Of a DNA stretch of 64,000 nt, positions 8,737 to 48,400 are shown piece after piece (the stretch's first letter is position 1; every line of letters starts with the position of its first letter). Origin of the DNA: Rugalucina vietnamica (taxonomy: Eukaryota; Mollusca; Bivalvia; Lucinida; Lucinidae); the NCBI GenBank assembly GCA_964017185.1, contig OZ024869.1:71979508-72043507 (forward strand), given 5' to 3'. Under the pieces are notes generated by a model. The model was not told the origin of the DNA, searched no databases, and saw only the letters and a program-made list of their open reading frames with translations. A program made the position numbers and the translations under genes.

Positions 8737-8888
8737 CGAGCTCACTCTGCTGTTTCTTCACTCTCGCTTCAAATGAGCAAACACCAACATCAAGTCTGAT
8801 ATATTTGTGCTTTTTATTGCATAATTTTACTTTACAAAATCTTTATTTTTCGTGACAAGGATCTATATAAACGAGAGCAACAATTACA

Positions 8889-19725: not shown

Positions 19726-22038
19726 AAAAAAAAAAAAAAAAAAACAAAAAAAAAAAAAAAAAAAAACAAAAAAACTTGACATCAACGGAGACGTTTCATA
19801 ACTTAAATTTAAAAATTGAAAAACTGTAACTTTGGAACGCATGCATGGAACTGAATGAAAATACCTCGTTCATTGCTTTATTAATTTACCTTTCAAATGA
19901 CACAAAAAGCATAAAAATATGTTGACTACGAAAAACAACGCAATTTTTCTTGCAAATACACTTAAGGATATGGAGTGTCAATTGCCTGTATGTAGATCAT
20001 ACTTGAATTCTTGAAAATTTTAAATAGCTGACTGAGTGAATGTCTTTGCCAATAAGGCGTAAACAAAAAATAGTTGTGTTTCCGCTAACCCGACCGACTC
20101 TGAGTTTTTGCGCCGACCCTGAAGTTTTTATTACCAATAAAAATAAAATAAAAATATTTTCATGCCCACCGACCCTCGACATTTGAAGTGGAAAACAGAC
20201 AATGATTTAAAAAACTGCTGTAATTTCAAAAATACTAGGTCAACTCGCGTTCTTTATCTTCCTACTGCATGTTTGTTCCGAGTACTTATGATTAATTTTA
20301 GCACGTTTCTACCTTTTTACCCATTTTAATGTAGGCGTCATACCTAGCCGATGTCAACACGCGATGGACACACGATTATGAAAATTTTCAAATTCGGCGG
20401 GGAATCGTGAAGACATCGGGCTATTCGTGAGTCCATCGTTACCCATCGTATGTCCATCGGGAGATTTTTAAGCCTTCGGCAGTACCATCGCGAGCGGCAT
20501 CAAAATCTTTGACATGCCAAAAAAATACAGGAAGGACACACGATGGTTCAATTTCGTGTTGAGTTCGCGAGTATTGCTTGGCCATCGTAAAGCCATCGTG
20601 AGGCCATCTTCTCACATCGGGACTACATCGTACTTGTGTCGTGTGGTCATCGGCACCATCGGCTAGGTTTTGCTACACGATGGCACTACGAGGGACACAC
20701 GATGCTGCCCGATAGTGTTACGAAGGCAACACGACATCGGGTGGCCTTCGCAACGCCATCGTATAAGCATCGTATTTGAAAAATCTAGAACACGATGGCA
20801 CTAAGATGGAAACACGATATTAACCAAAACTGTTATAATACTTCCCCGGATAACGTGGACATACAAAACAAAAACAATTAGCACCCACACAACATTTTCT
20901 CAGAAGCCTCAAGTGGAATACTTTTAAATCATGGCGTATTTCGATGAAAAAAAATTAGGAAAAAGAAGGTACAAGTAGGCAAAGACCAGGAAAAGGCGCA
21001 ATCAGAAAAAGATTCCTACTCCTAAAACCGAGGTGGGAAAAAACCAAACTAACAATCAGGTACTTATACCATGAAACATATCGTAAGCCGAATGAGCAGC
21101 TATTTTCCCAATAGGTGGCCATTCAGTTACCTTAACTTAACTAAAACTATGAAGACACACATAAGTCTCCAACAGCACAAAAAATTTTAAACACCAAGAC
21201 ATAAAACAAAAAGAACCACCACAGAAGTATCGCCTTGGAACAATCAGTAACACAAAGTTACTGGCGGGCTTAACCCGGTTTTACAGGCACCTAACCTCAC
21301 CCTCAGCTTCTGCAGTGGTTCATAACATTTAATAGTTAGTTCTTCGGTCCTCGTGGTGAATCTCTAACTAGTCAATGAATCATCAAGAACAAACAAATAA
21401 ATCATGATAAACATCCCGATAGCACTGCTGCTATACATCAAGCTGGTGCATGACAAAAAAACTCCTGCAGGAGCAACATAGGTACATGTATTTGGCTTGT
21501 TCATTACTCTGTCTTTAAAGCAGCGCCCGTTTTTCTGCTAACAGACAAACCCATTGCAGAGTTCGACAAACGAGCGTTTAAACAAGAACAGTTTTGTGCC
21601 AGTTTCATGTGAAAGATGGATTTAAAGTACTAGAAAACTGTCACCATGAAGCTTGAACAGTGTTGTAAAGTTACTGATATTAATTAACTTATTACTATAT
21701 GGACGTCAACAACGAAAGCATACAAAAATGCTTTCTCAAAAGAAACCATGTTTGCACGCAAATGAGGCTGGGGCTCGTTCAACCACCAGCCTGCAGTATA
21801 TGTAGGTACCGTGTATTTTATGGAGACATGGACTGCAGTGGAACTGCGGAGTTGAGAAGAAAACTATATCAAAACAAAACAGATAAACCGTTATTTTGGA
21901 GATGACTGTTAATGTCTTAGCACATCATTCATGTACATTTTGGTAGATCCTTATCTTAGATAATCTGTTTGATCATGGTATGGCTTTGATTGAAATGGCT
22001 ATGATTGAAATTAACACCCATATCGGAAAGTTTCTTTG

Positions 22039-22080
<42 letters not shown>

Positions 22081-24392
22081 GTTCCTGTGCCACTCGCAAC
22101 ATTCCCTCCAGGGTTCCACTTCAAGAATCCACTCCAATACGGCAGCCTAAGACCACTCCAAGACTCCAAGCCTTGGCTCCAACCCATAAATAAAGATTAA
22201 AACTTGAGATCCTTTAAGAGCAGCTAGCACATTAATGAGAAAGGGATAGGCCATGCCGCGGGTCTCGTCAGTGACGCTTTAGCTATGGCAACATGGAGCC
22301 AAAAGAGAATTACTGAAATTTTGCAACTTTCAACAGGGTTGTCGATACAAAGACTAATATTATCTAAATGGGGCCAATCATATTAACCATTTATAAGAAA
22401 ATGAATATTTACCGATAATAAATTCCTGATTCACGTGATGCCTTCGGGACACAATCGGGAATACATTTAACACTTAACACGATGTCGTCAGGCCATCGTG
22501 AAGCCATCGTGAGGCCTTCGTGTATCATTCGCAACAACATCGTATGCAAAACTGCCAGTTCCTCTATCTTCGCGAGTCCTTCGGGTATAATCGTGAGCTA
22601 TTCGTGTGTCCATCGTGTGTCCATCGTGTTGCAATCGGCAGGCTTCGTGTATGTGTCGGCTCAATATTGGCTTTTTACCAAATTCGTGAAGAAAGTCGCG
22701 CGAAGTTGAAAATTTCATATTCGTGTGGCCATCGTGTGTCAAAATCGGCTAGGTATGACGCCACCTTAAAGAAAGAAAAAATACACGAAAAATAAAAAGA
22801 TTTTCCGACCTACCGACTCTTTGTTAGCGGAAACAAGGCTATTTTTATTTTACGCCTAACAGGTTGGCGCATCTATCTACGCCAGTAATGTTGGAGCCCC
22901 AATGTTTGTTGGTTTAGCTGGGACCGCGGCAGCGTCAGGGTTTGCTGTTTCAATATACGAGTGGCATGTAAGTGAATTGAGCTGCGTCATGAGAGAATCA
23001 AAGCATTGCATATGCGAAAACAAAGACGCAGATCAGCTGATCGACGACTTTGTTTTCGCTACAGGGATAATACAATGCCTTAAGTTTCTAAATACGAAAT
23101 TTACGGCCTCTAGCCACCATCAGTAGCTGTAAAGCCTGGTTTGAGTCGGACCTGGTCGGAAACCACATTGCTGGTTTTCTCATGATTCAGCTCAATTATC
23201 TTCCGTAAGGCACCTGTTTTGCTCACAAAACGTCATATATATTTAGATTGCTAGTAATCTCAAATTGTCTGTGCAGTAACTCAAAGTTGACAAAACTATA
23301 AACATTATAAACGTTGGGATAGACACTGTGTGCATTTGGAACTACTTAAATGGCAGCTACATGTATACACAGTGAAAAACATGATTTCATTCCTTATTGT
23401 GTATGAAAATAAAACGGTCAGACTGTTCAACGATGATCACGGCATTTTCGCTACATCATACTTGAATTTTCTTTGTTGCTCAGTCCTTAAACCTAGTCAT
23501 TTTTACTGACATTTCTCGTTTTCTCAGTGACTCCCTATAAATATTCTTGTTAAATATCTCTGTCCCCAACTTGACCGAAAAAACAGTAACTGAGCCGGTC
23601 CTCGGGGTTTCTGACTAGGTCTGACACAAACCGGACACAAACCGGCCTTTGTAGCTACAGAAGATATATAGTTAGAAGCTTGACATATTGACGCATTTAG
23701 GAAGAAGAGGAATTGTGCTATCCGTGTAGCGAAAACAAAGGCGCTGATCAGTTGTGCAGTTACTGCACAGCTGATCTGCGCCTTTGTTTTCGCATAGTCA
23801 AAAATCCGATTGTCTTATGTTATCATTCCAGGCAGTGTATATCATAATATCTCTTGGCTGGATCTTTGTTCCAGTTTATGTGGCGTGTGGGGTAAGTCAT
23901 TGTTTTTCAAAACGCTACCTGTCTGGTAACTCAGCGCTGCCCCATCCTTACATTACTAATTCATCATGACTTGAAGATTAATATTTATTATAAAATGCTT
24001 TCTATTGTAATTTTAACTATTGCTCACAATAAGTAGTATAGGGGCCACTTTGGTACCAAAGTCGCCATTCGATAACAGTAGAACATTTGGTAAAAACAAA
24101 AATCAGGGTCTTGTTGCATAAGCTGTCTTTAAAGCTTAAGCTGTTATAAATTAAAGACCATAATTAGTTAAGTTGACATTAATTTTCTGCTGCATAAAAC
24201 AATTTTAAGGTGCCTCCTGAGCTACATTAACTAATTACAGATTTAAGTTGACGCTAATGTCGATTTACATACACATTTATGCAACAGGGGTAAAGCTGCC
24301 ATAAGGTTAACCGAGTCTTGAACCTGCCATTAACAATAAACGGAGTTTAATGCAACAGGTAACAGGTGCAGGTCTTTCCCTTATCTTTTTTG

Positions 24393-24436
<44 letters not shown>

Positions 24437-27400
24437 TACCGATGAAATTTGGAAAATATTGTGCAATTTGGGGAAAAATTGTCTGATTTTAGCAAATTGG
24501 GAAAGTTTTAAACTTCGGATTTTCCTGCTATTTGGGAATAGAAGTATTGTTTTCAAATTGCAGGCATACACAATGCCAGAGTACTTAAAGAAGCGCTATG
24601 GTGGGCGTAGAATCAGAACTTATACATCTGTCTTAGCACTGATCATGTACATCCTTCGAAATATCAGCGTAAGTACAGTGAATATAGATCTACCTCATTT
24701 TCACCCCGCTACACTTTGGTAACTCATTACAATTTGTTAGATTGTTGTAAAATATACAAAAGATTCTTTTTGCAATGATTACAATATCAAACAGTGTCTT
24801 AAAATATTGTGACATAATTCTTGGTTGAAGACATATGATTGTACAAATTTGGCGCATACTTCTTAATGCCCGTTCGTCAGCTTTTCACATGGAACTCATT
24901 CAAAAAGCAACACAATTTTATAAGTTTTATCAACACAATAACTTTTGAAATTAAAATCAATTTACGTGCTTTGGTCAAAATATATTCAAACGTATTCTAT
25001 CATTCTTTATGCAGAGAGAGACAAAACTCATAAAAACCGACTCAAATATCAAATATCCTCAAATACATTTGTTTTATGTGAATAACATTATACGCATCTT
25101 TCTAGAATTGAGCCGTCTCATGGGAAAACCAACAATCTGCATAGGCGAAAACAAAGACGCAGATCAGCTTCGCGGTAACCGCGAAGCTGATCAGCGCCTT
25201 TGTTTTCGCTACACCGATAGTACACTTCCTCTTCTTCTTAAATCCGAAATTTCAAGCTTCTAGCCTGCTTCTGTGCCTGTACAGCCCGGTTTGTGTCGGA
25301 CCTGTTCGGAAACCACATTGTTGGTTTTCCCACGAGACGGCTCAATTATTGTAGGGTGAGATATTTTGTGGCGCTATATTCATGCAACAGCTGTTAGGGT
25401 GGAATCTTTACCTCTGTGTTGTCATCATACTAGCGATAGTTGCCATTTATACGGTAGTAGGTAAGGATTTACGTCAATTTTTCCTGGTCTTTTTTAAGAG
25501 AATCAATGCTCAACCAATTACAAAATAACGAATCCTGCATGTATTCATGTACATAAGTAGTTTTTATCAGTAAGCTGTAAACCTTATGCTACAAATAGTA
25601 AATGGAAAGAAATTTTGTTATTATTTTGCTACCAAGTTTACCTTATTGCCAATTTCGGTTAAATTAATTTGTACTGTATGAAAACACCATTACCCCTGGT
25701 GTGGTATTGCCAGTTTGACGTTTCACCAGTAAACTATTCTGATTCTGATTACCAGCTACTGCATTGCTATGCATCGTTTCTAACTGATATGGTTCCTTAT
25801 GTTTACCATGAACTCACAGCAAAGAAAAAAATCACATTGCGTCATCTGAAATTAATCATTTCACACCTTTAAATTTGCAATTGTTATGTTCCGAGTGGTC
25901 TAGTGATATTTACCTACACACTACATACATCTATTCTAGTAGCTAGTAATGATGTCTTTTTGTTATTTCACTTTTTTTCAGGTGGTTTGCGAGCAGTGAT
26001 ATTTACCGACACATTGCAGACATTCATTCTGGTAGCTGGAGCCGTCGTGGTCACCATTGTATGTATGTAAGATAAATTATACTTAGTTTGGTAGATCGAA
26101 TGTATAAATAAGATAAATAGAATTTAGCATAAAAAATATCGGGAAATGAGAATTAAATCTGAGTTCCCTTTTTATTCATTGTGTTGTTCTTTCAGTCTCT
26201 TTGCGTTTTTCGTTCCTGTGGTATTTTAAAAAGTGTGCAAAGCTAGTGATACCCATCCACGCGGTAGATACGGTGGTTTCCCTAGGTACTACGTTTTTTC
26301 CCACTATGCGAGGACATTGAACGCCGACTTCAGCACCTTCTTGAATGCATACATTGAATGATTCAGTAGCAGGAGTCTTCATTTATTGAAATAAAATAAT
26401 AACTGGATTTTATCTGCAGCGTTCAACAAAATTGGTGGATACAATGCGATGATGGTGAAATACAAGGATGCAGCTACAAATTACACACTACACAACCAGA
26501 CATTATATGCCTGTGGTATGCCCCGGGAGGACGCCTACCACATCTTCCGGGACCCGGTCACAGCTGATATCCCCTGGACGGGCTCAACCCTGGGGTTGAC
26601 CATACTGGCACTATTTGTCTGGTGTCAAGATCAAGTAGGTTAAATGCCGAGAAAAAAATATTTTTTAGTAATTGTAGGCACTGTAGTCAGGGTTGTTAAT
26701 GGCATGAAGCTTGTATAAAATGGCATCATATGTTTTCACATTAATACCTGACCAGGTCTGACACAAAAGAATCTTTATAACGTCAAAAGCAAAATTGGAA
26801 TTATGAATAAAGCGTTACCAAACATCACTACATGTATATTGGTATCTATGTATATATGTATCTTAAAACAACAACACACAGACTTTATAATGTCAAACCA
26901 TCAAATGCGGGACTTTGATCGGCGCCTTTAAAGCAGAAAGTCTTCTTATGCTTGCGAATCTACATGTAAGATAAATTGCCATTGTAGTCTTACAATCAAC
27001 AAACCTATATCCACGATGTATTCACTGAGTCTTGCAATTTTCCAGCTGATTGTACAGCGCTGCCTGTCAGCCAAGAACATGGTGCATGCAAAAGGGGGTA
27101 CCTTGGTGGCATCGGGCCTAAAGTTTCTGAGTTTTCCATTGTTTGTATTGCCAGGAATGATCAGCAGGATCCTGTTTACCGGTACCCCATTACGAAAACT
27201 TGCCCATGCAATACACAGTCATTTTATCATCTGTGAAAAATGTTAATTTTCCTTTGAAAATTTATGGTATTTTTCTTTCTTTAGCTCAAAACATAGATTG
27301 TGGGTACACGTTAGAACCGCCTCGCCGAGGCGGTTCTAAAGAGTACACACAATCTATGTTTTGAAGCATAAATAAGAAAACAGGTATACCCCCGCATACC

Positions 27401-30400
27401 CCAGTTTTGCTATATAAAAGTGGGGTTTGAGGCGGTATATATTTCACGGACACGTTTTCCTTATGCATACTTTATGTCATTGACTTACTCCAGGAAAATG
27501 GAGACCATCATGTTTTCGGAAGTGAAAACAACAGATACAATTTTGTAACTTAATTCATTTGCATATCTGGACCCAGTTGTTCAAAGCATCGTTAGCTTAA
27601 CGATATCGTTAAGACATAAATTTGTTAAGCAAATATCAGCAAAAGTAGCAAATAACAGTGTATTTGTAATATATATGTTTGAAATTTTAACGAAACGTTA
27701 ACTAACAGCGTCGTTAGTTTTGAACAACTGGGCCCAGATCATCAAACATAAATGGGCTTCTGCCATCATCATATTCAGAAGCAAAAGCATTTCCACAAGA
27801 AAGCCAGTCATGTCATTGTCAAAATCCGTCGATACACTGAAGATCATTATCACCCATCATTGTGTTTCAGATGAAATTGCGTGTGCTGATCCTGACAAGT
27901 GTTATGAGATCTGTGAGAATAGAGCAGGCTGTGCCAACCTCGCATATCCATTACTGGTCCTCAGGGTGCTCCCGGCAGGTATACTCTACATAATATTATG
28001 CTCAACATGCTCAATATGATACTATTAATGGATGGCTTTTTAAAAAAAAAAAAAAAAAAAAAAAATAAGATGTACACCTACTAAATGTGAACGTGGAAAA
28101 TGGATTGCCATGACGAAAATCATTCGTGGTTTTGTTGTAGTGCAACTCGTCTTGTTCGTTCGCTTTATTTGCTTTCGGGCGAAAGTGAGAGCAGGGTCCC
28201 ATCTAATGACATCAGCGAAGGATAGAAGACGCATTTTAAATTTCACATCCAAGTAAAATCTCCTTTCTTCAATTTCAGGCCATTGACCAATTTTAAGTTC
28301 TCATTAATTTTCTTCCCGTTTTCAGGAGTACGAGGTCTAATGCTTGCCGCTTTGTTGGCGTCACTGATGAGTACATTAACATCCGTCTTCAACAGCGCTA
28401 GTTCTATAGTGACCCTTGACCTTTGGGGTCAGTTCAGAAAGAACGCTAAGCAAGCTGAGTTGATGATTGTAGGAAGAGTTACTGTTCTTGTAATGGTTGG
28501 AATAAGTATTCTCTGGCTGCCGATACTACAGGCTCAGCAAGGGGGATTACTGTGGTTTTATATAGCTGCAATATGTGCCTATCTGAGCGTGCCATGGTGT
28601 ATGGCTTTCCTGTTGGGTCTGTTTTGGAAACGTACATCAGAACCGGTAAGTGAAAGTGGTTAAATACACAAAGGTACAAGTAGGCAAAGATCAGGAAAAG
28701 GCGCAATCAGAGAAAGATTCCCACTCCAAAAACCGAGGTGGGAAAAAACCAAACTAACAATCAGGTACTTATACCATAAAAACATTTCGTAAGCCGAATG
28801 AGCAGCTATTTTCCCAATAGGTGGCCACTCAGTTACCTTAACTTAACTAAAAATATGAAAACATACATAAGGCGCCAACAGCACAAAATATTTTAAACAC
28901 CAAGACATGAAACAAAAAGAACCACCACAGATTTATTTCATGATCAGTAAAACGTTCCGTATTGTACGTTTAGGTAATTACCAAACACACGTATATTTTG
29001 GTTTATCAATATAAGCATTATAGTCAGGCGATTCTAGTCTCTATAGGGTATGACAATGGAACAGCATGACAGATGTTTTGAAGTTTTAAAACGTGTCAAC
29101 ATCAGATACATGGTAGAAGATGGCCACACAGGTGTATAATAACACACTAACTGTGCAACATGGCATATTAATTTCATGGTTATCTTTCAAAAATGAGGGA
29201 AACAAATCATAATCTATGATAATTATAAGTCAAAACAATGGATGGTTTTTTTTACAAAGAACATTGTTTTTCAGGGTATATTCTGGGGCATGATGATAGG
29301 CCTCGTTGTGGGAGTGGTTAGAATGATCCTTGACATGATAATGCCTCCACCAGAATGTGGTAGTGGACAGACGGACGAACGACTGAGCATCATCTCGCGT
29401 GTAGATTTCCTTCATTTCTCTATTATCAACGCGATTATATGTGCGGTTGCTATGGTGACGATTAGTCTGTTCACCCAGCCACGAACAGCGGAGCAGGTAA
29501 AGCTTGACATTTTACTAGTTAAAACAGTAACGAATAATAAAAAGCAGCAGAGGCACAAGTTTCTATGATACTGGCTCCTGTTTGGCAAACCAAAAGATTG
29601 GTTTCGGCAGATGCAGAACAAACTTTAATATCAAAACCGATATGGTCGTTTATTATTAATATAGGAATGTTGTGTTATTAAACACACAGAAGCAGGCTTG
29701 CGTTTTCACTTATAGCAAAGACCAGTTTGATAGAAAATACCCTCTGCAAATATGAATCAGATTCTTAACTCATTTAAGCCTGGTGTCTTTTTATGGGACA
29801 TAGGCAAACAGCATAGCCCAAGATGTGACGCCGCAGAACGCGTTTTTCTGTTAGCTTGGAGGAATTTCATCGAAAATGAGATAAAAATTAAAAATCACTC
29901 CTAAGACCCCTAATGATAATGATGGGAGAATCCATTCGTCAAATATGGGTTTATCTACAGCTTCACCGAGTGACATGGTGGACAAGACACGATAAAGACG
30001 AACCGCAACTGACGGATGACGAAGAAGAGGTCGACAAACAAATAAAAGCTTTTGAAAAAGACCGGGACGGTATTGGAGAAATGGAGATAGATGAAAGTGA
30101 AATTGCTAGGAAAGAAAATACTTGTAAGTCAGGTGAATGACGCTCTTTGAATGTCGAAAATCAAGGAACTGGTGAAATGAAAATATGCAAAAATGGACTT
30201 ATATATTATAATTTCTAACTGTTGGTGACTATAAAACGAATAATAATAATAATAGCTAGAATAAATGATAAACAAAATGATGAATAAAATGATGACTATA
30301 AAATGATGAATAAAAATAATTGTTAGAATTGAAGACATTATTACTATCTGACCAGCAATAATTAAGTTGCAGTCCATGTTCCACGACGACTAAATTTTAT

Positions 30401-31415: not shown

Positions 31416-34400
31416 ATGACGGAATCGTTAGTTTGGGAAGACTATCTCACCGTTGGACTATATTTTGGTGTTGTGCTAGCTGTTGGAATATGGGTAAGGG
31501 GCTTTTTTCTTGATGTTGAAGACTTTCAAAGGAAATTCTTGTAGATATTGAAGATTTTTTTCAAGAGATGCTTCGTTGTTTATCGACCATTTAAAAAACG
31601 CAACTGGTGTTTGATATTGAGATTGTATGCTTTCAACATTCAGTGAAGAAACAGTTCGTGATTTTCCTGAATGAAACTTTTGCTTCCATTTTAGCCTATT
31701 TGTTGTATTTATTCTCAAAATGATTAAGAAAATATATTGTAATGTAATTATGTGTTGTCTTTAATTTCAAGTCCACGTTTCGCCAGAACAGAGGGAGTAC
31801 AACAGGATACTTTCTGGCGGGAAAGAATATGTTATGGCTTCCCGTAAGTATAGAATTTAATCCAGTTGTATATAACAATTTTGATATTAAACATGAATAA
31901 CTTGTCTTTTGGGAGGTTTAAAATATGCACTAAAACTTTCTAACTGAAAAATGGACTATCTGCGAATTGTATAAAAAAGGGAAAATCTGTTAACATAAAT
32001 ATAATCACTGTTCCAGGTAGGAGCGTCTATCTACGCCAGCAATGTTGGAGCCCCGATGTTTGTGGGTATGGCCGGGACCGCGGCAGCTTCTGGGTTTGCT
32101 GTTACCATATATGAATGGCATGTTAGTGCAATTATTATCTTTAAAGTTGTCATTGTTGCGACCAGAGTGATCTATAAATATACGTGTATGTCTGTCTGTC
32201 TCTTTGTTATCAACAGATTTACGTTAAGTTAATTGTTATGATGAAACACCATCATTTTGATGAGAATTTATGACAACGGGCTTCTATTCGAAAAGGAAAC
32301 CTTTGATACTTTTGTTTACATGTTATCAGTGCTTTCAGAGCAGCTACGTAGTAAGCTTTAATTAAGGGAGAGCGCGGTGTCCTAGTGGCGTCGGACTGCG
32401 GATCGGGAGGTCATTGGGTCCAGATACTACTGGAACCGAGTTGTGCTCTTGAGCAGGACACATCAATTCTCAATTTTGCTGGTAAAGCAATTTCCAAGAA
32501 GCGATGACTCCGTTCCGACATTAACGAACATTTGTGGACTAGAAAGCTAAGCCATAATACAAACAACAAAGAAATAAATAACTGTACATTTCAACAGGCT
32601 GTGTACATCATTATATCTCTTGGATGGCTATTTGTCCCTGTCTACATTGCATCGGGGGTAAGAACATTCGATATTGTCTTTAATTCTTCGTGCATATGAG
32701 TATAAATAAGGACATTGTTAATTCGCCCAACATATCAAGTCGATAAAAAGTAAGAAGTATGAAAATTTCATTTTTATTTTAATTTGAAACTAATATACCT
32801 ATTGTTTTGAACTATTTATCTGTTGCCTTATTAATAAGCTCGAGTATGCTCACCATAGTGTTTATCTGATTTGAAAATCTCTAATTAAGGATGATACCGA
32901 CAAAACTTTTCGGTGCAAGACCATCTTATATGCTGGCGTCATACCTAGCCGATTTTAACACGGTATGGACACACGATTATGAAAAGTTTCAATTTCGGCG
33001 GGGATCGTGAATACATCGGGCCAATCGTGAGTGCATCGTTACCAATCGTACATGTATGTCCATCGGGAGATTTTTTAAGCCATCGGCATCACCATCGCGA
33101 CTTTGACATGCCAAAAAAATACAGGAAGGACACACGATGGTTCAATTTCGTGTTGAGTTCGCGAGTGCATCTTGCCCTTCGCAAAGCCATCGTGAGGCCA
33201 TCTTAAGACATCGGGACTACATCGTACTTCTGTTGTGTGGTCATCGACACCATCGGCTAAGTTTTGCTACACGAAGGCAATACGATGGAGACGCGATGCT
33301 GCCCGATTATGTTACGAAGGGAACACGACATCGTATAGCCCTCGCAACGCCATCGTATAAGCATCGTGTCTAACAAAAATTAGAACACGATGGCATCTCG
33401 ATGGAAACACGATATTAACCAAAACTGCTTTTTCTGCGTTTCCAATATATCCCAAGGTAACGTGGACATACAAAAATCAGCATCCACACACACGGGGCCT
33501 TTTTCTCAGAAAATCTTAAGTTGAGTACTGTTGATTCTATTCTGACAAAAATCACGGCATATTTCGAAGACAAGACAAACAGGAAGAAGAAGACTGCAGT
33601 ACTGCTTCTTTACACGCAATTGGAACATGATAAATTCATCTTGAAGGAGCAACACCATCTCTTACTGGAATTTGGTTTGTTTATATAAATTATTCTGTTG
33701 TCGTTCAAGCAGCACTCTGTTTTCTATCTAGTAGAGCAGTACCCACTGCAGTTTTTCGACAAAAAATTCCTTTATCTACTATAAAATCAAGACCTGTTGT
33801 ATGTCATTTTCATGCGAAAGATAGATTGAAATACAACCAAACTGTCACCGAGAAGTTTGAACAGTGTTGTAAAGTAACTGACAATACAGGCATGGTAGTA
33901 TTTTTTACCGTGGACGTCAACAACGAAATCATACAAATGAAATACCTTCTCTAAAGAGACCATGTTTGTGCGCGAATGAAATTGGGTCTCGTTCAATCTC
34001 CTGCCTACAATATAGACACCGTGTATTTTATGAGTGGAACCTTGGAGGGAAGTTTCGGAGTAGAGCTGACAGGCGCAATCTTCTCACGCCCTCTTCCTGG
34101 TTTCGGTGGCATTTCCAATTTTATGTTTTAAAGAAAGAAACTGACAAAGCTGATGTTTTCTCAACATCACTTTTCATTCTCATTAATTGATTTTTACATA
34201 ACATCGGGAAGTCACGTTATGCCTTCGGGACACTTTCGGGAATACATTTTACACCTAACGATGGCTTCACGATGGCTTCACGACATCGTCAAGCATTTGC
34301 ATACCATTTGCATCAACATCGAATGCAAAACTACCACTTCGTGAATCGTTCGTGACTGCTTCGGGTATAATCGTGTGTCCATCGTGTGTCCATCGCATGT

Positions 34401-34806
34401 CCACCGGTAGGCTCCGTACATGCTTCGGCTCAACATTGGCTTTTTACCAAATTCGTGACTAAAATCGCCGCGAAATTCAAAATTTCATATTCGTATAGCC
34501 ATCGTGTGTCAAAATCGGCTTGGTCTGACGCCAGCAATAACAAGTAATTTGGTGAGAAAAAATCATGTGGTCAATGGAAAGAAAAAATACAACAGAAAAC
34601 CCCTTTGATTCTACTTTCGATTTTCGAGATAAATTGCATTGTAGATTCTAGACCATAATGATATACCTGAATGTGTAGCGCAATGATTCTTAGTTGATTC
34701 TTAGTTGATATTCAGTAAACTTTGAGTTGAGAACATACTGCTTGCTTGTATAATTAAACATGCAGTTTTAATCAGCCCAGTGTCGCAAATTTTAAAGTCA
34801 TGGCGC

Positions 34807-34865
<59 letters not shown>

Positions 34866-37800
34866 GCACGAAACAGATCAAAATGCAACTTAATACCGCC
34901 TTTATTATGACGTCATTGGCGTCATTCCTATTTAAAACCTTTATCAAATTATCAAATTTAGACAATTATTTATTGAAGTAAGCTTGTTATACATAAATCC
35001 TCCATTTTCAACGTGACAACGCTTATGATTATAGATTTGTTCCACAGGCTTTTACAATGCCAGAATATTTGAAGAAGAGGTTTGGTGGCGTACGAATAAG
35101 AAGATACATGTCTATCCTGTCATTAATTATGTATGTTCTGAGAAATATTAGCGTGAGTACTTCCGCTTTTTATCTCCTTAAGCAGGATCATGCACACATG
35201 CCTACTCTGGTTGCACTTTTCACTTTGATTCAATCAGAATGTTTGTTTACATGTAATCAGCATTTTTTCCCAGGAACTTGATGTGTTGTTCTGGGAAATT
35301 CTGCTATATTTAGAAATACGGATGTTCTAATATTCCGTGTTCTCAACATGTTTTTTCGCGGCCAAGTTGATGCTAGCCCGATGACGCATATAATTGAGCC
35401 GCCTCGTGGGAAAACCAACAATGTGGTTTCCGAACAGGTCCGACACAAATCGGCCTGTACAAGCACAGAAAAGAGCTAGAAGCCTGAAATTTCGAATTTA
35501 AGTAGAAGAGGAATTGTACTATCCGAGTAGCGAAAACAAGGACGCTGATCACCGCTGATCTGCGTTTTTGTTTTCGCCTATGCAGATTGTTGGTTTTCCC
35601 ATGAGGCGGCTCATATATGATTTCAGGAGGCTCACATTAACTAAGGGGATACATTTTCATACTTTAAGCCATGCTGGCTCGAGTTTCAAAGAGTGCGCTC
35701 CGATCGAATCCCCGAAACCCATAAAATCTGCCACTGCAATGCTGGTATCGAAGAGCTAATCATCTAACTAGTTGGCTTTTTTTTGCTTGATTTTAAATCT
35801 CACTAGAACTACCGACTTCTGATATTCACTTTTATAATTAAAAGGTAAAAGTAAACAATGATCAAAATAATGGTACAATTAGAAAGAAATTCCCACTCCA
35901 CAAACCGAGGTGGGCAATAAGGTACTTATATTAATGGAACATATCGTAAGCCGAGGGAGCAGTAGTATACTAGTATTTTCGGCCCCTTTAATGAAGAACA
36001 TGTTCATTTTTTTTAGAAAATAAAACAACAGATCGATTGAGCACGTCTTCTGATTTTTTTTCAGGGTGAAATCTACAGCGGAGCAATATTTATGCAGCAG
36101 TTGTTGGGTTTGAACCTGTATCTGTGTGTAGTTACCATTCTTGCTGTAGTAGCTATCTACACAGTCATCGGTAAGAATTTGAGCCGCGTCATGAGAAAAC
36201 CGACATTTTACATATGCGAAAACAAAAGGCGCAGATCAGCTTCGCAGTAACTGCGAAGCTGATCAGCGCCTTTGTTTTCGCTACACGGATAGTACAATTC
36301 CTCAAGCTTCTAAATTCAAACGTTCTAGCCTCTAACCATCCTCTGTGCTTCTTCAGCTCGATTTGTGTCGGACCTATACGGAAACCATATTTGAAATTGG
36401 TTTTCTCATAACGCACCTAAGTTCTTTGTTTCTTTGTGTCATTGCTCAATGGTCAACAGGGAAGGTTATAATGGGACAGCCAGTAATCCTAACCACACTG
36501 TTCTTTGGCAAGTCTCCCAACGCCGGGTAGAATACAACTACTAAGAGCACATTTGTACCACCTCTTACTGACAGATACAAGTACAGCGGAAGCTGTCAAA
36601 TAGCCATGGTATATTTTTATGACCAAATATTAGTGAAATATACCCGAGACATCGGTACATGTATTTCACTGACAAGAAATGAACTTCGCTGTTCACTGCT
36701 AGGTACGACACAAACCAGGTTGTGCAGACACAGAAGATGGCTACATGCTTAAATCTAGTATTGCATTGCAGAAGATTAATTGTGTAATCTATGTAGCGGC
36801 GTTTTGTTGAAGTCCCTCTACTTCGTGAATCTCCTGCTTCCTTAATCGGAAAATAATAAATCTGAGGCATCTTGCAGCATTGCATTTATCGCCCTTTGTT
36901 TAATCGATGATATAGAATTGACTGCTTCAATGCGCTTCTGTACGTTTTCTGTTAAGGATGTCTACTTCCATGTTGTTCACGCCAACTTTGTTTTAGTTGA
37001 TACTAGGTAGCCAGCCACCTAACTGAGAAAGAGCTGACCGTCTTGCCATTCATGCGCATTTCGGTTATACTGGGTCGGGCGTCAGACTTAGCCTGGGTCC
37101 AGTCGTCAATATAATTATTTTTTTTATTATTATTTTTTTTTCGCCAATGAGTAGATCTACATTATAAAAATTACACAAGGTAGCTGTTATTGATTTCCGT
37201 AAATATTGACATTTTTGACCAAGATACGAAAAAATGAAAAGAGAGAAAATGATCAGGCTGGAACCCAGGCTAGTCAGACTCTATGATGGCCCCGACTTAA
37301 TTTTAGTTGGTTGGGGCCGGAGCGTCTTGTCTGTTGCTTGGCCCACCGGGGTCCAACTAATGTTTTTCTTTTGCTCCGATTTCAGTAAGTTATTCGGCGC
37401 CCAGGGATCTCCATCGTCGGACAGCTTACTGAATTTGTTGAGTCCTCGTTTTTGATTTATCAGGATGTCTATCATAATTTATTTGTTTGTTCTTGATGAT
37501 TCATTGACTAGTTTGAGATCCATCGAAGAACTAACTAAATGTTATGAACCACTGCAGATGCTGAGGGTGAGGTTATGACCATGTAAAATCGATTTAAGCC
37601 CGCCAGTAACTATAACTGATCGTTCCAAGGCGCTACTTCTGTGGTGGTTCTTTTTGTTTTATGTCTTGGTGTTTAAAAAGTTTGTGCTGATGGCGCCTTA
37701 TGTATGTTTTCATATTTTAAATTAAGTTTAGGTAACTGAGTGACCACCTATTGGGAAAATAGCTGCTCATTCGGCTTACGATATGTTTTCATGGTATAAG

Positions 37801-38129
37801 TAGCTGATTGTTAATTTATTTTTTTTGGAATGGGAATCTTTTTCTGATTGCGCCTTTTCCTGATCTTTGCCTACTGTGATATCTAGTATCATCCATTTCT
37901 CACCAGTCTGGACTTTGGATTGGGCTTTTGAATTTTACATCAGGAAAACATGCCCATGGAATATATACCCACTTATACCCCACGTTTATATAGTAAAACT
38001 GGGGTATGAAGGGGTATAACTATTTCTCTTATTTTTGCTCCAAAACATAGATTGTGGGTACTCGTTAGAAACGCCTCGCCGAGGCGGGTCTAACGTGTAC
38101 TTACATTCTATGTTTTGAGCAAAAATAAG

Positions 38130-38214
<85 letters not shown>

Positions 38215-41200
38215 GCAATGAAATTTTCAATTTTTACAGCTGAAAAAAAAATCTTTGTTTAGTGCATGGGCATGTTTTCGTAATGGTCGTATCGCTCTAT
38301 GTACCTTCTATTCTCACTTTATTTAATTGCATGTTCGTGTGTCCGACCAAAGTCTATACTGATAAAAGCTATTGCCCGCTTGAAATTAACAAACAACACA
38401 TATAAATTGACATAGTAATGTTTTATAATTTACAGGAACAATGCTTTGTGATAAATGATACAAATAATATGTAATGCAAGCAAATTGACATACAAGAAAC
38501 AACCATTTTCAACTTTTAGTATAATATTGAAACCTTTTTCTGTTCAACAACATAAGATAAAACCTGATTCTTTTATACGACAATGGTTCATCTGGTCACA
38601 ACATTTAATATTCACTTAATAGACACAACGTAATTGTTTTCTTTTCACAAACAAATGATATATTAGGTCCATTGTGACGGATATACTAACAACTTTCTTT
38701 TTTCAATAGAAAATGTCTAAAGATCAGGAAACGCTAGCTGATGTACAGCATAACCGTTATCTTTGGACACTCTTAAACCACTCAAACTGTCACTTCTGAC
38801 CTTAATCCATTCTTCCTGCTTCTTTTCGTCATAGTAAAAAGCAGCGTCTTTGAAGTTGAACAAATCCAGTAGACCCTGAACTCGGGCGTACTGTCTTCCA
38901 AGACTATCCGACACCCGACCGTTGACCGCAGCTCTGAGCCTTATGTACAGAAATGGAGAAAGCTGATTTTTGAGCACATCGCACGTGAAAGTGACTTCCC
39001 AGGAATTATCACCCGACACTTGCTCCACAGTCACGAGCGAGAACTCTCCGTTCAATTCTGCATTTCTAGTCTTACCTCCGTCGTCAAAGTAACACTGGTA
39101 CGAGGAACCCTCTGACCCAGGCCAGATGTCAAACACAAATGGATCTTCGTCTTTGTCAAACTGTTGAATATTCTTCACTTGTCCGTTAGCAGAAATTCGC
39201 GTGGGTAAAATGGCTCCCTCTCGAATGAAGATAGGCATAATTTCGAGTGGCACCGTGAACGCTCTAGCAACTCCTTCCCCTTTGTAGTATCCAAAATCTC
39301 CCTGTGTGTAGTGGAATGCGTCTTCTGGGTCGCATGGTCCGTCAAAGCGAGCGTTATACGGAAACCATTTGACGTTCGCTGGAAGCCAGACGGGATGTCG
39401 AAATATGGTCGATGGATAGTTGCTTGATCTGTGATCCGTCAGTTCGCCACAGTTCTCGTCCTCTACTGCTGGTGCCACCAATACAGTGCTTTCCCCGATG
39501 AAGAACTGAGAATCCTCGCAAGTTCTGAAACCCTTCATGATACTGGGATCGCTTGATCCGCCGTCATACAGGCATGTAGGTTTCACAGGAGGAAGTCCCG
39601 TCTTGCAGAAGGTGTACATTGCGCTGTACAGAATATGGTGGAACCTCATTCTCAGCTTCATGAAGTCGTTCATTATGTCGGAGAATTTTCGCCCGCTACC
39701 TTTGTAAGGCCAGTCAAACCTGAATAGTTCTTGGAAATTCTTTCCTTTATCACAGTAAATGAAGTTTTTGTAGTGGTCCCTGAACCATGGGAGAAGGGAG
39801 GCGGCCTGGACCCATCGCACCATTAGTTTCTCCTGGCAATGGTTGTAGGTATGTATGATGTTGTCAGAAGCAGAGAACCCGCCAACGTCAGCGCCAGTGA
39901 TAGGAAACCCACATAGCCCAAGGTTTAGTACTCTCGGCAGTTGAGTCTGCATGCAGTGCCAGCTAGAGCAATTGTCCCCAGTCCATAAACCTCCATAGTG
40001 GGCTTGTCCGAGATAGCCACCTCTAGATATGATATAACTCCTGTTATAATGTGTAGGATAATGATCTTTGACCGTAAGTCCATATTCATAGGTAGCCTTG
40101 CATTCCATGTATCCGTGAAAGTTTCGAAGCGCCACGAATGGTAGCTTTTTCCCTGGGTGTCGAGGATCTCCATAAAGTTGCTGACCATGGAATGATTTCC
40201 AATTAAATTTTCCAGATTTCAAACAGAGGTCGTCCACTGTGTAGTGAGAATTCCAAAGTGACTCTCCAAGGCAATGTGGATCTTGGGCCGGTTCTGTCAT
40301 ATCCTGACAAACGAAGTCTAAGCCTATCTTCAGAAGTGGTCTAGGGATCTGTTCCTCATCCCAATAGTTTCTACCCCACCAGTCTGCTGCTTCATCGCGA
40401 CTGAAATCGGGAAATATGGCTGTTGTTTTCGTATAAGGCAGAATAGCCTGGTATGGCGTACTCTTAGTCGGATCTTTTTCATATTCCCCACCACACTGCA
40501 CAAACTTTGAGCTTTCCACGTATAATTCCTTCTCTTTCAATGTCTTGTAGACACTGTATTCTGGTTTATCATTTCTGATAAAGTTAGTGATATTTGTTTG
40601 ACAGACCAGGTCCTGTTTATGCGCCCATTCGAACACAGAATCCCCTTTGCCTACCTCTCCGTCTTCCCAAAAGTCTGAATTGGTGGTGAAGACTTCAAAA
40701 TCATCCTGAACATCAACATCAATCGCAAGGCCTTCTAAAGGAAACCCGCTCTTTTTGTATCCATCCACTACTGATTTGACAGAAGATTTGTCGTCCCCAT
40801 TAAGACCCGAAAAGCCATACACACCTTGGAACAGACCGAAAATGTACTTCGGAGGCATCGCACCTCGCTGGTTTATTCCATCGTTTACCAAATGTTCTTT
40901 TCCAGTGAGAATGGAATAGTTGTCAATTACGCTAGCGACCAGTCCTGTGTCGGGACCAAAGCTGGACGGAAATACCAGATAGTAATCCAGTTCAGGGTAT
41001 TGGGCACCGAAAAAATAGACATTTGAAATGTTCTTTGTATGTTTTGGATCAGATGCCCCAGTAAATAGCTCACTTCCCAAGTTGATATACGACTGCGAGG
41101 TATTGTCCAACAACAAACCATAGGCATATGAACAGTCCGAAGCATATTCCACAAAGAATGGAGCAGTGGCATATTGAGGAATAAATGCTTGCTCTGTGTT

Positions 41201-44200
41201 TTTAAGTTCCTCCGGCACGCCTTTGGGCTGGAGTTCAGGTTGATTACCGTTGTAATTGTCATAATTAAAGAAGGTCACGGCCTGTCCAGTATGTGAGAGG
41301 CTTGAAGAGTGATTGTTCATTTCGTCGCCTTTACTGTAGTAGTTCTGACATGCGCCACATCCAAAGTAGGCCGGTGTCTCATCGTTGTCGTCACGTGGTA
41401 ATGTTTTAATGGCAGCTATAGCTGAACCGCACCCTTCATCAACGAATACGATCCCTCTCGGATGATCATCTTCCTTCATCCCTGGTGGCGTTACCCACCC
41501 GTCTTGGTGCAGAACTTGGCCGCTCTCCCTATTTCTGACTATCATTCCACACTTAGCATCGAATGACATCACAACGCCTTTCAAAGTGACAGTTACACCC
41601 GCATTGTCGTATGTGATGTCCGGTTTTTCATCGTCTTGCGCTTGTATCCAGTCAAGTTGTCCACGTGATATAGGCCCATATCTATTCTCGGAAGTGTCAT
41701 AATCATTAAATGATTTAGCATATGGATTAAACCGGACCCGGAAAATGTTTCTGTCATAGGAAATTACTTCAATCCTGAGGAATTTTTCCTTCCTCTTTCC
41801 CGCATCTCCACATCTGACACATTCTACAGTTATATCGACGCAGTTTTGGTGAACGCAAGGTTGTCCCATGATCTTATCAACGCGCCACCAGTCAACGCCA
41901 CTAAGTGGGGTGAAATCAGAAACTGGAACGTAATCCAAACACGTGTAATGTACGCCTTTTCCAAAGTTTTTGCCATCGTAATGGAAGTCATTGTGGGTTT
42001 CATGTCGTTCATCAGTACCTTTTCCAGAAATACTTCTGTACAATATCTTCCCCATCCTTGGTGTTTGTTGGCTGGAGCCACAAGAAGAGTTACTGGAGAT
42101 TGTTTAGTATGCCACGCTGCAGGTGACCCGTCTCAATCGATAGATACAGTTCAAACTGAAGTCCAACTGTGATAATGATTGCTGAAAAAGAATAAATTAA
42201 TTCACAATCAATAGCCGCATGAACCAATATTTTCTTTGAGGCCAAAATTATGCACCACACCTTCAGTGAGTTTCGTGTTGCTATTAATCTGTGTTATTTC
42301 ATTATGATGTTACAGCCTTAAAAAGTTTGTTTTGTTAACACATTTTGACAGTATAAATAAGAAATTATAACTTGTTTTTTCTTTGGTTTGTTCCAAATAT
42401 CAGTTCCAAGAAACTGGGATTGAAAATGAATTTTCTGGTTGAGTATGCTTGTCTGAAATTGTTTTGATGTAAACTTTAACCATTGCTATAATAATTATTG
42501 CAATGGTTAAAGTTTACATCAAAACAGTTTCAGACAAGATATTATATCGATGTATTGTATTTCACTCACTCAAAGAAATACAAGAAACAGTGTATGTCAT
42601 TTAATTCAGAATGAAAGCGGCATATTCAATGAATACATCTGGACAGCGTGGAAACTATTTATTTACTGTTTTCTGTTGCTGCTTACTCAGTGACACGGTT
42701 TTCCTGCTAAACCAGAGTAGCAGAACCATTTATTTGAGCCGCCTCATGGGAAAACCAACAATCTGCATAGGCGAAAACAAAGACGCAGATCAGCTTCGCG
42801 GTAACCGCGAAGCTGATCAGCGCCTTTGTTTTCGCTACTTCCTCTTCTTCTTAAATCCGAAATTTCAAGCTTCTAGCTCTTTTCTGTGCTGTTACAGGTC
42901 GGTTTGTGTCGGACCTGGTCGGAAACCGTTGGTTTTCCCACGAGACGGCTCATTTAATATTACATGTATGTTGAAATTTAAAACACTGATGAACACTTGT
43001 ATGTTGGCAATAAGCTTAAAACAATACTTCATGTGAGCCGCTCTTAGACAAACCCACAATGTGGTTTCTGAACAGGTCTGGTACAAATCAGGCTGTAAAG
43101 TCACAGAAGCAGGCTAGAAGCTTGAAATTTCGGATTTAAGAAGAAGAGGAAGTGTACTATCCGTGTAGCGAAAACAAAGGCGCTGATCAGCTTCGCGGTT
43201 ACCGCGAAGCTGATCTGCGTCTTTGTTTTCGCATATGCAGATTGTTGGTTTTCCCATGAGGCGGCTCATTTATTTAATATTACATGTATGTTGAATTTAA
43301 AACAATGAACACTTGTATGTTGGCAAGGAGCTTAAAGCAATGCTTCATGTATAACTAGTAAATCGCTGACCAAAAGCTTTAAAAATGTTAAAAGTATGCA
43401 TACGAGTATGTAGAATAGAACGATCAGGAATTAATATAATAAAAATTAAAAAGTTAATATTATAATCAAGGTACCTGTATAAAGCTCTAAGGAGTCACTC
43501 TAGCCCTTATTCTGAACCTTTATGAGACGTCTCAATTCTGTATGTCTGAATCTGAATTTGTTGAACATAGGTAACCTCTCATGGCTTTTATACAGTCAAA
43601 ACCAGTGATCGATGATCGAGAAAATATAACTAGATCATACTGGCAGATACCTTGATTTTTCCGAGAAAATCCGGTATGTGCCAGTCCGACCACAGAAGCA
43701 AACATATTACAATGAAAGAATTATATATAGCCTATAGAAACATATATCTGTAGCGAACAGTGGTCGCTAGATACGGTCATCGTGGTCAGAAATTCGGTAA
43801 GTTACAATTTCTTAAGATCTGAATCTAAGAATAGATCAGTATACTAGGATGCAGGATATGTGAAGCTGCACGTAAACAATTTAGTGAGAAGCAAATCTTA
43901 TTCGCTGGTGTAAAATGCTTATCTTGCATGTTTAAATAGCAACTGCAAATCAGCGAGCAGTTCTAAATTGTTTTGTTTTTCAAAGAGAGAAAAAGCATAC
44001 ATATTTCGGTCAGGTCACCGTCAGAACAGGCATGTACATGACCTTGATCCGGATCCGTTCCTGGAATTACTGGCGGAGACTACTGTCTATGCACCATCTT
44101 CCAGAAACTGTATTTTTCAAAATCTCACTTTTCTGGAAGACCTCAAGAAAAGTATGACCATGCCACCATTTGGCATTCCAAAAGTCTTAAAAAGTGCCAC

Positions 44201-44889
44201 AAAAATTTTGAAAATCCGTTAACAAATGAAAACTACTTTCTCGGAACACTTCTGAATTGATTATTTTTCATTTGAAATGCACCAAACCAAACAAATACAG
44301 TATTGTATGCATAGCTGCCAAACTCTTAAAGTTATTCCACATATTTGCTTGATGTTCACTCTTAAGGCTTTTGGATTACATCCCTTGCACATGAAAAAGT
44401 CTTATTCAAAATAGTTTTTGGGCAGAATTATCATGAACCGATTTTCAAAATTTTTGCGGCACTTTTTACTACTTTTGGGTTGCAAAAAGATGACATGGTC
44501 ATATTTTTCTTGTGGTGTTTCAGGAAAGAGTTATTTTGAAAAATGTGGTTTCTGGAATGTGGTGTACAGACAGTAGATATATATATAGTTCGTGATTCTC
44601 GAACGCGGGTATAGGGCATGATTGCGATACAGGCAATGACTTTACGATGTTTTCGCGAGCATTTTATTGAATACAAATTGCCCATGTGCATTTCTGGTAC
44701 ATAGGTACCGTGTCGTATGATTTAATATAACAACCCCGTTTTATTGACCAATCGCATTTCAGGTGGACTGCGAGCTGTTATATTCACAGACACGTTGCAA
44801 GCCTTTATTCTGATGGCGGGGGCAACAGTTGTTACAGTTATCTGTAAGATTGCTTAAAAAATAATTACTTATAAAAAAAACAAAAAAAA

Positions 44890-45422: not shown

Positions 45423-48400
45423 ATGTACATATAGTTTAAGAATGAAGTCTTTTAGATGTTTGTTGTAAATGGTCGACGAAAAGACGAAAAAATATTTCAA
45501 TGCCCCAAAACAAACCTTCAAAATATAGATAAACTGATGCTTACAACTATGTTGTACTCGGCATGAGAAAACCGGATTTTTGCCAAGGCGAAAACAAAAG
45601 CGCAGATCAGCTTGGCAGTAACTGCGAAGCTGATCAGCGCCTTTGTTTTCGCTACACGGATTGTACAATTTGTCTTCTTCTTAAATCCGAAATTTCAAGC
45701 TTGTAGCCATCCTCTCTGGCTGCAGAGACCGGTTTGTGTCAGACCTGGTCGAAAACCCCGAAGACCGATTTTCTCGCGTCGCGACTCATGTTCATGTTGT
45801 ACTTGGCATGTTAGCTTTCGACAAGATTGGTGGATACAATGGTATCTTGGAGAAGTATAAACACGCCGCTACGAACTACACTCTTCAGAATCAGTCATTG
45901 TACGCATGTGGAATGCCCAGGGACGACGCGTTTCACATATTCCGGGACCCTCTCACAGCCGATATCCCGTGGACAGGGGCTACACTGGGGCTGACATTCC
46001 TGGCACTGTCTGTCTGGTGTCAGGATCAGGTTGGTGGTATTTCCCTTTAAGGAAATGGCTCACGAGGTTATTTCTCTTTAAGGAAATGACCCACGAGGTT
46101 ATTTTCCTTTAAGGAAATGGCTCACGAGGATTCAATGTCCTTTCAGAAAACGGGGTTTGGAGACATGGATTAATCACAACCACAATGAGCCCCGTCATGA
46201 GAAAACCAACAATGTGGTTTCCAAACAGGTCCGAACACAAACTGTGCTGTACAAGCATAGAAGATGGCTAGAGGTTGGAAATTTTGGATTTAGAAAATAG
46301 AGGAATTGTACTATCCGTATCGCGAAAACAAAGGCGCTGATCAGCTTCGCAGTTACGAAGCTGTGAAGCTGATCTGCGGCTTCGTTTTCGCATATGCAGA
46401 TTGTTGGTTTTCTGGTGCGGTGGCTCATATTTTTGTTTTGAAAATCGGGCAAGTTGTTTTGCAAACGATATTCTTATAAACAGTTATTCTTATAGCAAGT
46501 TTCACTATTTAGCCTCATGACTGATTTAAAAACAATCCCAATAAACAATAAATGACGCAAACTATGCAAATGAAGACAGATTAATTTAAATGAAAAATGA
46601 CGTGTTTATTCAACACATCTACGGGAATTTCAAACTAATGAAAAAACAAGTAGCCCAAGGGCAACGATCGCTCACATGAGAGTCAACAAGTACATGTTTT
46701 TTTTTTTTTTTGTTTTGTTTTTTGAAAATCTGATCAAAATTGGCAGGAGTGTGGTGAATTGATGGCTTCCATTGGCACACCTGACAGACAGCTCGTTTGA
46801 AGCTATCAAGATAAAAAACACAAACTTTATAGAGATTAATGTCATAAGCATGCAGGTAAAGTTTCAGCTTCATCCTCTTTACAGCCTTTGAGAAGATTTT
46901 TAAATATTTTTTTCATAAATTCACCCTTACGTTGCTATAGCAACCAAAATAATTACACAATTATGACAAAAATTGCCAAAATTGTGGAGGACTAGTCAAC
47001 AAACATTTACATAAAAACAAAACTCAAATATTTCAAGCGAAATTGCAATTTTCCGCTTTTCGTCTTACAAGTCAATGGAAACTTTTAGGAAAAAAGTCAC
47101 ATGAAACATAGAGATATACTCAATAAATATTTCTGCAAAGACAAAATTCAAATACCTACAATTGATCCAGAAAAAATAGCTAATTTCCACTTTTCCCATT
47201 ATAAGTCTATGGAAATCATAGCAACCAGAGTTCTTATCCGACCGGAATAAAAAACACAAATTATGTAGAGGCTACTGTCAGGAACATATATACAAAGTAC
47301 AGGATTCATCCACTTGACAGTTTCTGAGGAGAAGATTTTTGATTTTTTTTTTTCAAAATTTTGCCCTTTATGGGGCCCCAGCAACAAATCAAAATAAAGG
47401 ATTAGGACAAAACTCACAAGAAACATCAAACACTACTCAATAAACATATCTGCAAAAACAAAATTCAAATGTCTGCAATTTTAGTGGAAAAATAGCCGAT
47501 TTACAGTTTTCCCTTTATAACTCTATGGAAACTTTCAGTTGCCATAGCAACCAGAGTTCTTATCCGCATGGAATAAAAAAACACAAATTATGTAGAGGCC
47601 ACTGTCAGGAACATGTATACAAAGTACAGGCTTAATCCCCTTGACAGTTTCTGAGAAGAAGATTTTTGAATGTTTTTCGAAATTTTGCCCTATATGGGGC
47701 CCCTGCAACCAATCAAAATAAAGGATTAGGACAAAAGTCACATGAAACGTAGAGGACTACTCAATAAACATTTCTGCGAAAACAAAATTCAAATATCTCA
47801 AACAAGACAGCAAAAATAGGCAATTTTCACTTTTTCCATTATAAGTCTATGGGAAGCATAAGTTGCCACAGCAACCAGAGTTCTTATCCGATCGAAATAA
47901 AAAACACAAAATTTTCGTTCCCCCATCCTGTAGATGCTATATGTGAAATATGAAAAGATTCGGCCTGACAGCTTCAGAGGAGAAGTCGTTTGAAAATGTT
48001 GACGACGACGGACGACGACGGACGACGCACGGACGCCGGCTCGACTACTATACTATAAGCTCACCTTGTGAGCCTTCGGCTCAGGTGAGCTAATAAGGAA
48101 AACACAAATCGTCTGTATATATATCAAAGATACAGAATACGAGTACTAACAGAATATCTAGATATTAACGACAAATGAACCGCCACATGGGAAAACCAAC
48201 AATCTGCCTGGGCGAAAACAAAGGCGCAGATCAGCTTCGCAGTAACTGCGAAGCTGATCAGCGCCTTTGTTTTCGCTACTCGGATAGTACAGTAAATCCG
48301 AGATTTCAAGATTCTAGCTTTTTTCTGTGACTGTACAGGTCGGTTTATGTCGGACCTGGTCGGAAACCACATTGTTGGTTTTTCCACGAGGCGGCTCAAA

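Follow-up and report, generated by a model that had tools for sequence, protein, structure and literature searches.

How did an alpha-1,4-glucan-lyase-type gene, whose enzyme class, known in red algae and fungi, converts starch or glycogen to 1,5-anhydrofructose, come to lie in the genome of the lucinid bivalve Rugalucina vietnamica, and does its product still act as a lyase? The gene was studied in a window of 64,000 nucleotides (the whole stretch analyzed here, C1:71979508-72043507) within a 1.09-Gb, 47-contig assembly, in which contig C1 spans 102 Mb and the gene lies at 72 Mb. Positions without a contig name are those of the window. The lyase-branch gene was probably acquired horizontally from a bacterium or a bacterial-type source, and appears to have been kept as a working gene, antisense in an intron of an SGLT1-like transporter gene. 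Horizontal acquisition had been one of two origins proposed in an earlier reading of the letters alone (the sequence-only reading), and it is the best reading of the evidence given below.

The 1112 uninterrupted codons described in that reading were recovered as a single ATG-to-stop frame on the minus strand (1128 codons from stop to stop), and all five of the motifs quoted from it are present. The runner-up frame in the window has 381 codons, and the longest frame in 40 simulated 64-kb sequences (first-order Markov, built from the window's own base steps) had 246 codons.

Membership in GH31 was determined by using Pfam models, all of which scored above cut-off (PF01055, 193.7 bits vs 23.5; PF13802, 27.8 vs 27; PF21365, 24.9 vs 24.4); the protein has the TIM barrel, the mutarotase-like N-terminal domain and the C-terminal beta domain of the family. 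Its best match in the PDB is Gracilariopsis alpha-1,4-glucan lyase isozyme 1 (2x2h, EC 4.2.2.13), aligned across residues 33-1086 at an E value of 9.1e-159, and the second of the 39 matched PDB sequences, maltase-glucoamylase (MGAM, E 6.1e-21), follows roughly 138 orders of magnitude behind. The window protein has the equivalents of D553, D665, and N459 of the algal enzyme but shares only 36.5% identity with it over 961 positions, and has C in place of W551 and E in place of V556. Animal GH31 enzymes (GANAB, MGAM, lysosomal GAA, and this animal's own GH31 genes) belong to the same family, and both GANAB and MGAM retain the nucleophile Asp and the GDN Asp. However, animal enzymes reached PDB E values of only about 1e-9 to 6e-21, the four own-genome rows that were aligned lack the N-I-T motif described below, and the animal enzymes included in the trees stand apart from the window gene. 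By PDB E values and trees, the protein resembles a characterized lyase more closely than it does any structurally solved hydrolase; PDB ranking, alignment, and the two trees thus agree with the earlier claim that it is lyase-like rather than an ordinary animal GH31 enzyme.

A six-frame protein search of the assembly found one copy of the lyase-type gene; the sole other match (36% over 120 residues) fell in an exon with GANAB as its best PDB match. PF01055 was found at 37 places including this gene, and five of the other 36 were checked: loci L003, L004, L005, and L007 lack the lyase motif, and L001 is the GANAB exon. Three clustered GH31 genes at C14:36315929-36360970 (frames of 720-721 codons) have neither the lyase motif nor W.DM at the nucleophile.

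In PMC12441222, the glucosyl-enzyme of the lyase is formed on D553, which also abstracts the proton with the assistance of N459, and hydrolases are described as having Ile at the N459 position. D553 and N459 both fall at offset 11 in the 2x2h chain, on WQDMT and QTNIT, and their equivalents in the window protein are D585 and N488, so that, by the residues given in that text, the Asp nucleophile and the Asn of EC 4.2.2.13 are both present. Across the alignment, Asn fills the N488 column in every one of the 22 lyase-like rows, as well as in two of nine other GH31 rows (only three of these nine have Ile), and N by itself is therefore no proof of a lyase; N-I-T occurs in all 22 lyase-like rows and in none of the other nine. 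The partial row L031 and the second Rhizobium copy L010, which has a C-terminal frame departure, were dropped from this comparison, and the nine other GH31 rows were picked from loci in hand, with L001, L006, L008, L034, and L037 not among them. D694, at red-algal position 665, is also retained, and we take it to be the second catalytic Asp.

Two residues beside the nucleophile depart from this pattern. Twenty other lyase-like rows are all identical at 78 columns; the window protein agrees with them at 77, and the sole departure (W583C) sits two residues N-terminal to D585. At position 588, the window protein shares Glu with eight of the nine other GH31 rows and with none of the 21 other lyase-like rows. 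The window protein consequently reads CQDMTEP rather than the WQDM[T/A/P] without Glu that was drawn from the aligned rows rather than from a published definition, and for this reason the name lyase-type is used rather than proven lyase. Both departures would also be expected if the acquired gene no longer encoded a lyase, C583 and E588 having turned it into an alpha-glucosidase, a transglucosidase, or an enzyme of another specificity that is still under selection; single-base changes could suffice (e.g., TGG to TGT and GTA to GAA). Such a loss is nevertheless considered unlikely, though worth keeping in view, given that N488, D585, D694, R678, H761, and the remaining lyase signature are retained.

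The gene is joined to animal sequence on both sides. Exons matching PF00474 reveal tandem SLC5 genes within and past the window, in an array with two genes in the window (gene A, 22860-29502; gene B, 32014-54429) and a third, traced by its exons, at C1:72068910-72090178. Genes A and B share ten exon blocks in conserved order, and the joined blocks of gene B align with residues 70-550 of the SGLT1 chain 7wmv (E 2.6e-153). The exons bordering the lyase-holding intron of gene B join exactly in frame, as do those across the homologous intron of gene A, which is only 521 bp long and has no lyase-type gene. The animal transporter exons that the sequence-only reading had placed on both sides were therefore located precisely, with the lyase-type gene lying wholly within one SLC5 intron; SGLT1 and SGLT2 (SLC5A1/2) are relatives of the intron-holding gene and no part of the enzyme. 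Since the gene is present in the intron of gene B and absent from that of gene A, the simplest reading of the two sequences is an insertion into gene B after the SLC5 duplication, with loss from gene A as the alternative.

A bacterial-like gene without introns might raise suspicion of an assembly artefact or of symbiont DNA fused to an animal contig, but either is very improbable here. The gene shares one 102-Mb contig with animal genes and sits at 72 Mb, between exactly splicing exons; repeats within 2.5 kb on its flanks recur elsewhere in the window; and its codon use is animal-like, with synonymous sites saturated relative to the bacterial gene discussed below. A contaminant contig was rejected on the chromosome-scale contig and the exact SLC5 exon joins, in keeping with the earlier judgment that contamination was unlikely.

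The flanking repeats belong to a dispersed family (25102-25344, 36180-36391, 42735-43268, 45563-45703, and 48172-48294). One pair, 42735-42838 and 43165-43268, has 104-nt arms that are 99% complementary, and arms on either side of the lyase-type gene (36220-36391 and 43058-43229) are 80% complementary. Capture by a mobile element was considered, but the repeats at 36180-36391 and 42735-43268 were not read as transposon ends because the family recurs elsewhere in the window. Separately, 20348-22774 and 32936-34544 (upstream of gene A and in an intron of gene B, respectively) share non-coding-looking short repeats that are similar in several frames.

Relatives were sought in the genome_contigs collection, described as covering 84,980 species; the seed alignment combined 2x2h with the window protein and a pair of Rhizobium sequences, and L010 was part of this seed. 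From 77 pattern matches, 20 relatives were obtained, 19 of them at 25-33% identity in their best segment. The closest relative found (L013:3647-6931) comes from the metagenome-assembled genome (MAG) PL24a_bin.25 of the SAR324 cluster and shares 55-57% identity with the window protein nearly end to end (56.4% over 1078 aligned positions). The two proteins are of similar length (1094 vs 1112 residues) and have the N-I-T signature; the SAR324 gene differs in reading WQDMTVPA, like the algal lyase, in having GDD where the window protein has GDN, and in residing in a bacterial genome. The earlier suggestion of a red-algal-like enzyme consequently stands for the lyase branch only: the nearest relative found is bacterial, at 55-57% identity, and the red alga is at about 37%.

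Phylogenetic placement was determined by using IQ-TREE. Tree 1 comprised 30 proteins and 894 columns under LG+C20, and tree 2 was restricted to 283 catalytic-region columns and added the animal's GANAB exon (L001), GANAB 7kbj, and both MGAM domains of 9kz6; L031, L030 (partial), and L010 were dropped from the trees and L007 also from tree 2, and both trees were built without lysosomal GAA, fungal lyases, or sequences from other animals. The window and SAR324 proteins were grouped at 100/100 in tree 1 and 100/99 in tree 2. In tree 1 they belong to a ten-row clade (100/100) that also holds the red alga with a Rhizobiaceae MAG (100/99) and Rhizobium with Lonsdalea and Brenneria (100/100), and eleven more bacterial rows join next (99/95). 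Constraining the window protein to pair with the red alga carries a penalty of 156 log units (approximately unbiased (AU) test, 3e-7), and a red-algal donor was rejected. Forcing it with four long-frame GH31 genes of its own genome, one of which (L007) is a long branch, costs 52 (AU 8e-5), and union with GANAB and MGAM in tree 2 costs 135 (AU 1.5e-56). The window gene thus nests with support among non-animal sequences, outside the tested animal GH31 alpha-glucosidases. The second origin offered in the sequence-only reading, an old GH31 lineage retained by molluscs, is disfavored because the gene nests among bacterial sequences.

The SAR324 contig is itself bacterial, with SCO1/SenC, argininosuccinate-lyase-type (argH), and FecR genes. 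Its argH shares 85% identity with that of another SAR324-phylum genome (G029) and 39-72% with those of 42 more; argH was matched in 48 of 52 SAR324-phylum genomes, its own included, four of these only weakly. On one side of argH, five genes are collinear in G029 (76-88% identity), and on the lyase side G029 has other frames. The lyase-like gene was found in one of the 52 genomes, with short, weaker GH31 matches in three others. SAR324 therefore need not be the donor, and the sporadic copy, the break in synteny relative to G029, and adjoining small frames that by eye resemble a toxin-antitoxin pair make SAR324 a recipient as well.

Such a history would also suit vertical inheritance, in which an ancient eukaryotic lyase survived in a few animals and red algae and was later passed from an animal to SAR324. 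The tree by itself leaves the direction unfixed, and the codon-use distance of the SAR324 gene to its contig reference is 4.40 vs 3.25 for argH (the reference includes argH). This history is nonetheless judged quite improbable: the 21-row lyase group is otherwise made up of bacteria of at least five phyla and one red-algal row, that row pairs with the Rhizobiaceae MAG and not with the animal, the coding frame is free of introns, and the matching intron of the paralogue is empty.

Divergence bears on the age of the acquisition. Between the window and SAR324 genes, 192 of 243 four-fold degenerate sites differ (79%), and this saturation, together with 57% protein identity, points to long purifying selection and an old split. 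We conclude that the horizontal transfer was likely old and that the gene appears to have been retained under selection, in line with its agreement at 77 of the 78 invariant columns. Third-position G+C of the gene is 0.46, and its codon use lies at a distance of 4.05 from the animal's intron-free frames (n = 5) and 7.44 from the SAR324-contig frames (n = 3); as these reference sets are small and partly include the genes compared, only the window gene's value is informative.

Several observations weigh against acquisition of a working lyase-type gene from a bacterial-type source. Evidence on when and in which direction the transfer took place comes from a single animal and a single MAG, the sporadic SAR324 copy does not establish that cluster as donor, and the order of the three subgroups within the ten-row clade is weak (85/79). 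N488 is not exclusive to lyases, and the W583 to C change and the hydrolase-like E588 flank the nucleophile, where they may have weakened or abolished lyase chemistry. Despite the lyase-linked residues, these two changes make the reaction less certain. Its likely product would be 1,5-anhydrofructose.

For this acquired gene, the following course is proposed. An ancestor of the animal would have gained a lyase-branch GH31 gene from a bacterium, or from a source sharing the gene with bacteria such as SAR324, and the gene would then have entered the intron of an SGLT1-like transporter gene in antisense orientation. No hydrophobic stretch is seen in the N-terminal 45 residues, where mean hydropathy over any 15 residues reaches at most 0.36, and a cytosolic enzyme is therefore likely, with glycogen as its probable substrate, or dextrins if it works in digestive cells. 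At the non-reducing end of the alpha-1,4-glucan, Asp585 would remove a glucosyl unit, and proton abstraction assisted by Asn488 would lead to elimination, releasing 1,5-anhydrofructose instead of glucose. With C583 and E588 in place, rate or product may differ from those of the algal enzyme. The 1,5-anhydrofructose might act as an antioxidant, contribute to defence, or undergo reduction to 1,5-anhydroglucitol, which mammalian SGLT1 and SGLT5 transport according to PMC12441222; a functional tie between the lyase-type gene and its host transporter gene would be only speculation.

The description of the gene as intronless holds for the coding frame. It may fail upstream, where a good polypyrimidine-AG splice acceptor (ttattctttttcag) lies 126 nt 5' of the ATG and suggests a possible intron in the 5' untranslated region (UTR). 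Downstream of the stop is an ATTAAA hexamer (Table 1), one of two in 819 nt and possibly a chance occurrence; acceptor and hexamer alike would be compatible with a gene that has an intron in its 5' UTR.

Table 1. Coordinates of the lyase-type gene, its active-site codons, the SLC5 intron that holds it, and the neighbor proteins of bacterial relatives
Feature	Position	Strand	Basis
GH31 alpha-1,4-glucan-lyase-type protein P0001, intact 1112-codon coding sequence	38717..42055	-	frame, Pfam, PDB match, tree
D694 codon, in GDN; red-algal position 665 at offset 11	39974..39976	-	alignment
E588 codon GAA; V/A/T/C/D in other 21 lyase-like rows	40292..40294	-	alignment
D585 codon, catalytic nucleophile (= D553 of red-algal lyase)	40301..40303	-	alignment numbering
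C583 codon TGT; W in other 21 lyase-like rows	40307..40309	-	alignment
N488 codon (= N459 of red-algal lyase; elimination chemistry, PMC12441222)	40592..40594	-	alignment numbering
Putative 5' leader, from AG end at 42182 to ATG	42056..42181	-	sequence
ATTAAA, possible poly(A) signal, 110 nt 3' of stop	38604..38609	-	sequence
SGLT1-like SLC5 gene B intron holding antisense lyase-type gene, GTAAGA...TTTCAG, 8592 bp	36171..44762	+	exon comparison, splice join
SLC5 gene B exon 5' of that intron, ends IYTVI	36065..36170	+	PF00474, exon comparison
SLC5 gene B exon 3' of that intron; end is that of the conserved block	44763..44845	+	PF00474, exon comparison
Homologous intron of tandem paralogue SLC5 gene A, 521 bp, without lyase	25461..25981	+	exon comparison
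Copies of ~400-residue neighbor protein	L014:4708-5937, L019:4717-5937, L009:6525-7745, L010:6527-7747, L016:9315-10472 and 11597-12754		
Copies of 530-560-residue neighbor protein	L020:1369-3045, L028:4080-5753, L027:9541-11136		

Plasmid, phage, and viral collections were also searched. Among 72,556 plasmid records 119 matched, one of them with at least 80% cover (Rhizobium, 32.5% identity). A viral or phage origin was rejected, as only 17 of 50,697 phage records matched, at identities of at most 32.6% and covers of at most 71% (none reached 80%), and no lyase relatives were found in the viral_contigs collection.

In one Lonsdalea, one Brenneria, two Rhizobium plasmids, and one Rhizobiaceae MAG, the lyase-like gene is adjoined by a conserved protein of about 400 residues with a twin-arginine-like start. 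Searches of Pfam, the PDB, and functional NCBIfam models gave nothing significant for the copies tested, and no match was found in the animal genome by a search run without a positive control; the protein may be a partner in an anhydrofructose pathway. A second neighbor protein, of 530-560 residues and 37-62% mutual identity, adjoins the lyase-like gene in Okeania and in two members of the Bacteroidota; it had no Pfam match and, for the one copy tried, no PDB match.

Elsewhere in the window, two similar, divergent homeobox genes (558-1913 on the minus strand and 8871-10440 on the plus strand) have a split homeodomain, IKIWFQNRRAKERRQRRK, recognized as Pfam homeodomain pieces; presumably they are Cdx/caudal relatives. 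A 381-codon reverse-transcriptase frame (PF00078) at 62550-63692 on the plus strand looks like a fragment of a long interspersed nuclear element, and at 17554-18455 a 14-bp unit, AGTAGACCTTGGTA, is repeated about 64 times with 72% matches.

The enzyme family is already known; it is the active site of the animal member that is unusual. No report of a dedicated glucan lyase gene in an animal was found in open-licence literature, whose limited coverage makes this a weak absence. With somewhat less than an even chance, the animal would own a dedicated anhydrofructose pathway for breaking down glycogen or starch, built on a bacterial lyase captured within a sodium/glucose cotransporter intron, or, more boldly, the captured lyase would have had its active site (C583, E588) altered towards a new reaction. 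The gene would extend the bacterial genes taken over by animals with a carbohydrate enzyme, and an animal lyase-type gene would be an additional source that is directly testable. If the reading is true, the changed active site would be a natural experiment on the separation of lyase from hydrolase in GH31, and the two odd residues by the nucleophile would allow a clean test of which features give a GH31 enzyme its lyase character.

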